Virus record (IMG/VR): IMGVR_UViG_3300042445_001555
Span: 1 to 20,376 of that record
DNA: 20,376 bases
Source of the DNA: a virus
Direction: 5' to 3' (one strand)
Below are positions 1,813 to 7,084 of the stretch, piece by piece (positions within the stretch are counted from its first letter, which is position 1; each line of letters starts with the position of its first letter). Under the pieces are notes generated by a model, which saw only the letters and a list, made by a program, of their open reading frames with translations, made no database searches and was not told the DNA's origin. The translations under genes and the position numbers were made by a program.

Positions 1813-1833
1813 GCCGGTGAGTAATTCATCGGC
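1813..1833 (+). terminator. Hairpin after the zinc-ribbon-like gene
   Basis: GCCGGTGA (1813-1820) pairs with TCATCGGC (1826-1833) around GTAAT, with one G-T wobble. The 3' part, CATCGGCCATCTTACT (1827-1842), is repeated exactly at 2468-2483 in a second hairpin. It lies 24 nt after the stop. Confidence 0.5.
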
Positions 1834-1864: not shown

Positions 1865-1873
1865 TATATTTAT
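1865..1873 (+). promoter_or_regulatory. TATATTTAT late-type box in front of a gene-free structured region
   Basis: The same nonamer is found before the genes at 5041, 5778, 7112 and 20007. Here no gene follows; instead a long stem begins at 1880, six nucleotides after the box, about where transcription would be expected to start. Confidence 0.5.
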
Positions 1874-1879
1874 CCTCAC

Positions 1880-2232
1880 AGACGCCAGCCGGTCACCTTC
1901 ACCATTGCTGCTTTAACACCTACAATATGAAGACCGTGCTCGGCGTCTCCCCTAATCCTCACATATGTATGGACGTTAAAGCACAATGATGAAGTATACT
2001 CTACTCACATTATCAGCCGACAGAAAACACAATCACTAAATTCATCTGTAATGATGGACGTCACCCTAGGATATGGGCGCCTGGGAATTGATGGGACTCA
2101 CCCGATGAGTTCACCCGCGTTAGACATACTGCACCTGCGACGCAGTACTAGTTCCGCGGGCGCTAGTTCTCTGCTCCAGCTCATAATGAATATAACCGCA
2201 CTCACCATTCACCGTGTGGGTCAGAACCCACA
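1880..2232 (+). ncRNA. Candidate structured noncoding RNA with a pseudoknot
   Basis: The region from 1790 to 2264 has no credible gene. From 1880 it can fold as follows. P1: 1880-1894 pairs with 1932-1948 (15 bp, single-base bulges at 1937 and 1941). A pseudoknot joins the P1 loop, TGCTTTAAC (1909-1917), with GTTAAAGCA (1975-1983), 9 perfect base pairs. Smaller helices follow: 1988-1993/2041-2046, 2064-2070/2080-2085 (bulge at 2067), 2094-2100/2106-2112, 2127-2132/2142-2147 and 2147-2151/2163-2167 (these last two compete at one base). A hairpin at 2215-2232 ends it. A TATATTTAT box lies just upstream. Base composition is clearly more GC-rich than the virion genes. I know no named RNA family that matches. 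The exact ends and its existence as a transcript are inferred. Confidence 0.5.
2215..2232 (+). terminator. Hairpin at the end of the structured region
   Basis: TGTGGGT (2215-2221) pairs perfectly with ACCCACA (2226-2232) around CAGA. It is followed by the TACATTCAC box of the next gene after three bases. It could terminate the candidate RNA. Confidence 0.5.
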
Positions 2233-2235
2233 GCG

Positions 2236-2244
2236 TACATTCAC
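2236..2244 (+). promoter_or_regulatory. TACATTCAC leader box before the gene at 2265
   Basis: TACATTCACGTTAACCAA followed by ATAATTAAGAC, 29 nt before the ATG. It is nearly identical to the copies at 1262 and 1492. Confidence 0.55.
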
Positions 2245-6304: not shown

Positions 6305-7084
6305 ATGTCACATTACGAAGAAGACGTAAATGTATTTCTAGATAACGAATTTAGTGAAGTAGCCTTAAATAAACGTGGACAACCTCGTCGACGTAAACCT
6401 AAAGAACCTCGCATTTATTTTACTGAGGATACCGATAATGCTATTATCGAATATCTAGCCTCATCAGACCAAATATTCCGTAATCAGATTTATAGGGAGC
6501 GTATTGAATATGCTTTCTATAAACTGGCGGAAAATATTATTCATACATTCAAGTTTTACTATACTGATTCAGATACCATAGAGGAACTGAAACATGAAGT
6601 AGTAACATTTTTACTTGAGAAACTCCACTTATACGATCAATCTAAAGGTAAGGCATTTTCTTACTTTGGCACTATTGCTAAACGCTATCTAATCGTCTAT
6701 AATAATAACAACTATAAGAAACTCCAGGAACATGCTACCGTCGAAGAAATAGATGAAGATAAAGTTATATTATATGATACTATTAGAACGGCTGAAGAGA
6801 AAGAAGATCCTAATACTTTTATAGACCAATATATTAGATACGTAGACAAATATCTATACCAGTTATTTCCTAAAATTAATGATGCTAAAACGGCTGATGC
6901 TATTATGGAATTATTTCGTAAACGTGAAACGTTAGAAATATTTAATAAGAAAGCATTATATATATACATTCGTGAAATAACGGATACTACTACTCCTCAA
7001 ATTACTAAAGTAACTAAAAAATTAGATACATTACGTACTAAGTTATATAACGAATACTACCAGCACGGATATATAAGAAATTAA
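6305..7084 (+). CDS. Probable phage RNA polymerase sigma factor (late, gp55-like)
   Basis: The 259-aa protein has a basic N terminus (RGQPRRRKPKEPR, 24-36) and a sigma region 2-like helical core from about 55 to 140: IYRERIEYAFYKLAENIIHTF, then a helix rich in E/L (EELKHEVVTFLLEKLHLYD), then KGKAFSYFGTIAKRYLI (114-130). The last motif is the part that resembles sigma region 2 and T4 gp55, which binds the polymerase clamp and reads a -10-like box. No clear region 4 with a helix-turn-helix is seen; the C-terminal third is helical and lysine-rich. As in T4, such a protein would direct host polymerase to simple late promoters. The TATATTTAT boxes before virion genes are the obvious candidates. 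It sits directly upstream of the virion operon. Confidence 0.7.
   Translation: MSHYEEDVNVFLDNEFSEVALNKRGQPRRRKPKEPRIYFTEDTDNAIIEYLASSDQIFRNQIYRERIEYAFYKLAENIIHTFKFYYTDSDTIEELKHEVVTFLLEKLHLYDQSKGKAFSYFGTIAKRYLIVYNNNNYKKLQEHATVEEIDEDKVILYDTIRTAEEKEDPNTFIDQYIRYVDKYLYQLFPKINDAKTADAIMELFRKRETLEIFNKKALYIYIREITDTTTPQITKVTKKLDTLRTKLYNEYYQHGYIRN

Follow-up and report, generated by a model that had tools for sequence, protein, structure and literature searches.

The gap and its gene neighborhood

The window analyzed here is the whole of virus record IMGVR_UViG_3300042445_001555, a stretch of 20,376 bases. It carries baseplate wedge genes, an endolysin gene, a T5orf172 gene and a gene for tRNA-Leu. The best relatives among phage records of the protein encoded at 6305-7081 are found in Flavobacterium phage vB_FspM_immuto (48% identity), in which the gene order is similar as well. 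On the basis of these resemblances, the window is judged to be a piece of the genome of a large Bacteroidota myovirus. For the large Flavobacterium-type myoviruses, neither Rfam nor the literature searched yielded a structured RNA.

An array of small genes sits upstream of the structural genes. Many of them, both in the window and in related phages, are preceded by a cassette consisting of a short GC hairpin, a box of the form TAYATTYAC/TAYATTCAC, an A-rich leader like GTTAACCAAAAATTAAAA and the ATG. The gap at 1790-2264 belongs to this array, and its features are listed in Table 1 together with those at its borders.

Table 1. Features of the gap and its borders (window coordinates)
Feature	Position	Strand	Remarks
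Terminator-like hairpin	1813-1833	+	3' of gene 1523-1789; within repeat common to 2464-2483
Late-type promoter-like box TATATTTAT	1865-1873	+	CG precedes, as at two other late genes in the window
Cluster of UCACC (7 copies) and CUCAC (5 copies)	1875-2213	+	Word-count test
Helix P1	1880-1948	+	15 bp between 1880-1894 and 1932-1948; two single bulges
Helix P2	1897-1994	+	1897-1917 with 1975-1994, 19 bp, one mismatch and one bulge; crosses P1
Predicted multibranch 3' domain	2008-2188	+	Closed by 2008-2013/2183-2188; single-sequence MFE only
7-bp hairpin	2215-2232	+	Probable 3' limit of the RNA; also the 5' hairpin in the cassette of the next gene
Box TACATTCAC	2236-2244	+	Belongs to next gene, 2265-2429

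The late-type box that the first-pass annotation had placed ahead of the paired region is present. The plus strand of the window has five copies of TATATTTAT, and four of them lie 17-30 nt upstream of a gene ATG. In 23 close loci, 54 of the 56 plus-strand copies are located 11-36 nt upstream of an ORF ATG (mode 24); one of the remaining two lies at a contig end and the other is the copy at 1865. Merely one of the eight minus-strand copies in these loci precedes an ATG in the same way. When all loci are considered, 160 of 180 plus-strand copies are found upstream of an ATG, and two of the exceptions come from the more distantly related loci L024 and L025 (6376-6500), where the late-type box CGTATATTTAT precedes a tRNA-Leu gene by 36 nt. 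This arrangement suggests that the late promoter can drive RNA genes as well. The box arose in the gap in 69 of 20000 shuffles, and with the preceding CG in 5 of 20000; it is nine nucleotides long, the genome is AT-rich, and chance copies exist on the minus strand too. The sequence 3' of the 1865 copy lacks the A/T-rich leader typical of protein-coding late boxes. We infer the 1865 box to be a promoter element and, because boxes of this kind mark gene starts in the relatives and in one case that of a tRNA gene, its context supports an RNA gene as the occupant of this gene slot.

Pairing and repeated motifs

Pairing in the gap exceeds chance. The long stem annotated previously, P1, was recovered with every pair canonical. 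The 9-bp pseudoknot helix proposed between 1909-1917 and 1975-1983 is perfect, and its extent had been understated: it is the core of the 19-bp helix P2, to which 1897-1901/1990-1994 and 1903-1907/1984-1988 also contribute. Among pairs of crossing stems in 1874-1999, the top-scoring combination is precisely that of P1 and P2, with -54.1 kcal/mol in a stacking model that leaves out loop penalties. None of 3000 dinucleotide shuffles reached this value (best -39.6, mean -18.7, sd 9.9), and the strongest score among 17,935 windows, taken at a 63-nt step from 1.1 Mb of related phage DNA, was -50.6. P1 alone was equalled in one of 3000 shuffles. The MFE z-score was -2.98 for 1865-2260 and, with only 20 shuffles, -4.8 for the gap 1790-2264; in a window-by-window z-score scan of the plus strand, the 120-nt window 1881-2000 ranked sixth of 507 (z = -4.1).

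A pseudoknot of P1 and P2 would have loops of 2 nt (1895-1896), 14 nt (1918-1931) and 26 nt (1949-1974). It appears sterically possible, because both long loops can bridge the stacked helices at an estimated ~6 angstroms per nucleotide. In the nested alternative, P2 grows inward to about 29 pairs and forms one long hairpin, 1897-1994, which scores -32 (1874-1996) and is mutually exclusive with P1. A true pseudoknot is plausible but unproven, and the 5' domain may instead be a two-state switch, with P1 in one state and the long P2 hairpin in the other; single-sequence folding cannot choose between the two, and all structure predictions derive from one sequence.

Additional local hairpins are present in the MFE fold, and the final 7-bp hairpin was confirmed as 2215-2221/2226-2232. 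Its description as a terminator is plausible but not established: it has no U-tract and represents one copy of the generic cassette of hairpin, box and A-rich leader. It may end the transcript, though it is not specific to the candidate RNA.

The stretch 1874-2213 is also rich in UCAC (11 copies) and in UCACC, with seven copies where 0.67 would be expected. The z-score of TCACC was 7.9, compared with 7.5 for the 99th percentile of the shuffle maximum over all words of that length, and the UCAC count likewise exceeded the 99th percentile of the shuffle maximum for its word length. Six UCACC copies within 340 nt, on the strand read, occur nowhere else in 1.16 Mb of related loci. GTGAG, the complement of CTCAC, is found five times at 2410-2555.

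Relatives, origin and coding potential of the segment

The earlier statement that the candidate fits no family was borne out by the covariance models of Rfam release 15, none of which scored above its gathering threshold; P26 and MIR158, which appeared at a relaxed threshold, were each far below gathering and were discarded. The search for homologues, which covered related loci, phages, plasmids, IMG/VR and GTDB, found none. The gap was not recovered from ~107 related loci, a single-sequence covariance model run against 46 records matched only itself, and BLAST against 50,697 phage records and 72,556 plasmids returned nothing or chance matches of 25-30 nt. Peptide-pattern scans of IMG/VR with both halves of the gap gave no match. 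Two further leads were rejected: a GTDB pattern scan yielded a single Rhizobium stretch, the DNA alignment of which was no better than chance, and the pattern CTTCANCATTGNNGCTTTAAC picked out five contigs in two groups, all of them unrelated coding-like sequence. The large gaps in the relatives L018, L030, L039 and L046 show no similarity to this one. That in L018 (2484-3426) is itself ORF-free over ~940 nt, with z = -4.6 (10 shuffles) and no Rfam match, in a phage that has the 88-aa gene; it is possibly a large noncoding RNA.

In related phages the neighboring 88-aa gene is retained, and so is the block after 2579, whereas this segment is missing. The absence of relatives counts against the RNA-gene reading; an essential RNA ought to be retained. 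The earlier proposal of a late RNA of a new family stands in part: a strongly paired noncoding stretch does start at the expected distance from a gene-start box, while no homologue was found to back the family claim.

A 20-nt direct repeat (95%) at 1823-1842 and 2464-2483, each copy in a similar terminator-like hairpin, flanks the candidate RNA and gene 2265-2429. The distance from the 88-aa gene to the conserved block is 810 bp in the window and 132 bp in the related locus L005; removal of the 641-bp unit between the repeats leaves 169 bp, near the distance in L005. The junction sequence does not align with that of L005 and the agreement is in lengths only, which is suggestive of a cargo insertion between the repeats. 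The gap could be a dispensable inserted or decaying segment, a moron remnant whose inverted repeats are strong yet without function. Its restriction to this phage, the lack of sequence relatives and the bounding repeats (1823, 2464), with the length approaching that of L005 once the unit is taken out, are in keeping with such an origin. We consider it a rather unlikely explanation of the pairing, as two independent long crossing helices are hard to explain in neutral DNA (0/3000 shuffles), the box and the downstream cassette are intact, and the repeat-unit junction matches L005 in nothing beyond length.

The inverted repeats might instead act at the DNA level, for example as part of a replication origin or packaging element with the conserved noncoding block 2579-2780 as its core. 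This block, kept in at least 20 relatives, contains 11-bp GATAGCGG-type repeats and a strongly conserved core of CTCCCA...GCGGTCCATCGACGG...GTATATACGCATAT. No RNA covariation was found in it among the relatives; its repeats are probably DNA-binding iterons and the block is perhaps an origin or control region. The sign of the GC skew flips around it, and the CTCAC repeats of the gap have their mirror in the GTGAG repeats at 2410-2555. However, the block recurs in relatives that have no counterpart of 1790-2213, so the core element does not need that sequence, and the late box would have to be a coincidence. A DNA element is also a somewhat improbable account of the gap. A second strong set of crossing stems (-47.8) lies at 2431-2556, immediately 5' of the conserved block.

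The first-pass annotation saw no credible gene in the gap, and this was upheld by the poor codon usage of the two main ORFs there and their lack of relatives. These score -0.55 (2051-2257) and -0.58 (1849-1989) per codon, under every accepted gene (-0.43 to +0.19), a small margin with respect to the orphan neighbor gene 2265-2429 (-0.43). No relatives of either were found in IMG/VR, and a Pfam search with ORF 2051-2257 gave no match. ORF 1817-1930 scores -0.18, within the gene range, and consists of 37 codons without relatives. An unrecognized short protein gene is most unlikely and was rejected on codon usage and missing relatives: the 68-aa ORF 2051-2257 has the box-like TAAATTCAT 14 nt ahead of its ATG but reads through the next gene's hairpin and promoter box, and the 37-aa ORF 1817-1930, for all its gene-like codon usage, begins with GTG upstream of the late box.

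A candidate noncoding RNA gene

The reading that we prefer, with about even confidence, is an orphan phage noncoding RNA gene with a late-type promoter, situated in a variable cargo region. We infer that the box directs transcription from about position 1880 and that the resulting RNA, ~335-355 nt long, opens with a 5' domain of intricate pairing. In the pseudoknot form, the continuous strand 1880-1917 would pair with two downstream segments; in the alternative form, P1 and the long P2 hairpin would be the two states of a switch. The multibranch domain would follow, and the RNA would end near 2213-2232. Such an RNA would most likely act in trans, its stable structure offering the UCACC/CUCAC repeats to a protein or to a GGUGA-containing RNA. 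Its action as a trans sponge displaying repeated UCACC motifs is a guess that we think unlikely to be right. The fullest version, a phage-specific late RNA in which a two-helix pseudoknot of 34 bp accompanies seven UCACC motifs serving as a multivalent sponge or anti-Shine-Dalgarno mimic, is very unlikely.

GOLLD and ROOL are phage-encoded structured noncoding RNAs of unknown function that often lie near tRNA genes; ROOL has predicted pseudoknots and GOLLD rises during lysis (PMC12286853). The candidate resembles them as a phage-encoded structured noncoding RNA with a predicted pseudoknot, but has neither an Rfam match nor homologues, and its length is less than half of the 800+ nt seen in many GOLLD RNAs. 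The only tRNA gene of the window is located ~1.35 kb downstream of it. ToxI is a small RNA pseudoknot (PMC5772629). Like ToxI and related type III toxin-antitoxin RNAs, the candidate pseudoknot lies beside a small gene; in contrast to them, it shows no tandem RNA repeats before a toxin gene. Searches with the downstream 54-aa protein against the families of Pfam, PHROGs and PADLOC gave no match above cut-off. With the small-gene cassettes of this phage group the candidate shares the array slot, the flanking hairpins and the gene-type box, whereas a start codon is missing from the expected place and strongly folded sequence replaces the ORF. Transcription of the candidate would mean that an RNA gene has taken up a protein-gene slot in a large Flavobacterium-type myovirus and that the late promoter of these phages serves both RNA and protein genes, as the tRNA of L024 and L025 already suggests.

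A separate motif was observed at 1170-1242, directly 3' of the stop of gene 972-1175 in the window. Present in 17 phages, it comprises the 21-nt box TTCATACTTTTAATTTTTAAT, which is nearly invariant, and after it a GC hairpin whose loop is of the UUUCU type. The Rfam search of the window gave no match. The TTCATACTTTTAATTTTTAAT motif was located in L006 (340), L007 (2360), L028 (3562), L030 (4289), L031 (2934), L032 (3309), L037 (279), L038 (4567), L039 (2372), L045 (522), L046 (4921), L052 (2500), L065 (2994), L067 (4411), L068 (1978) and L098 (4578). Compensatory changes occur in seven of the nine pairs of the hairpin. Judged by such sequence comparison, 1170-1242 is a new RNA motif and better supported than the candidate at 1865-2232.
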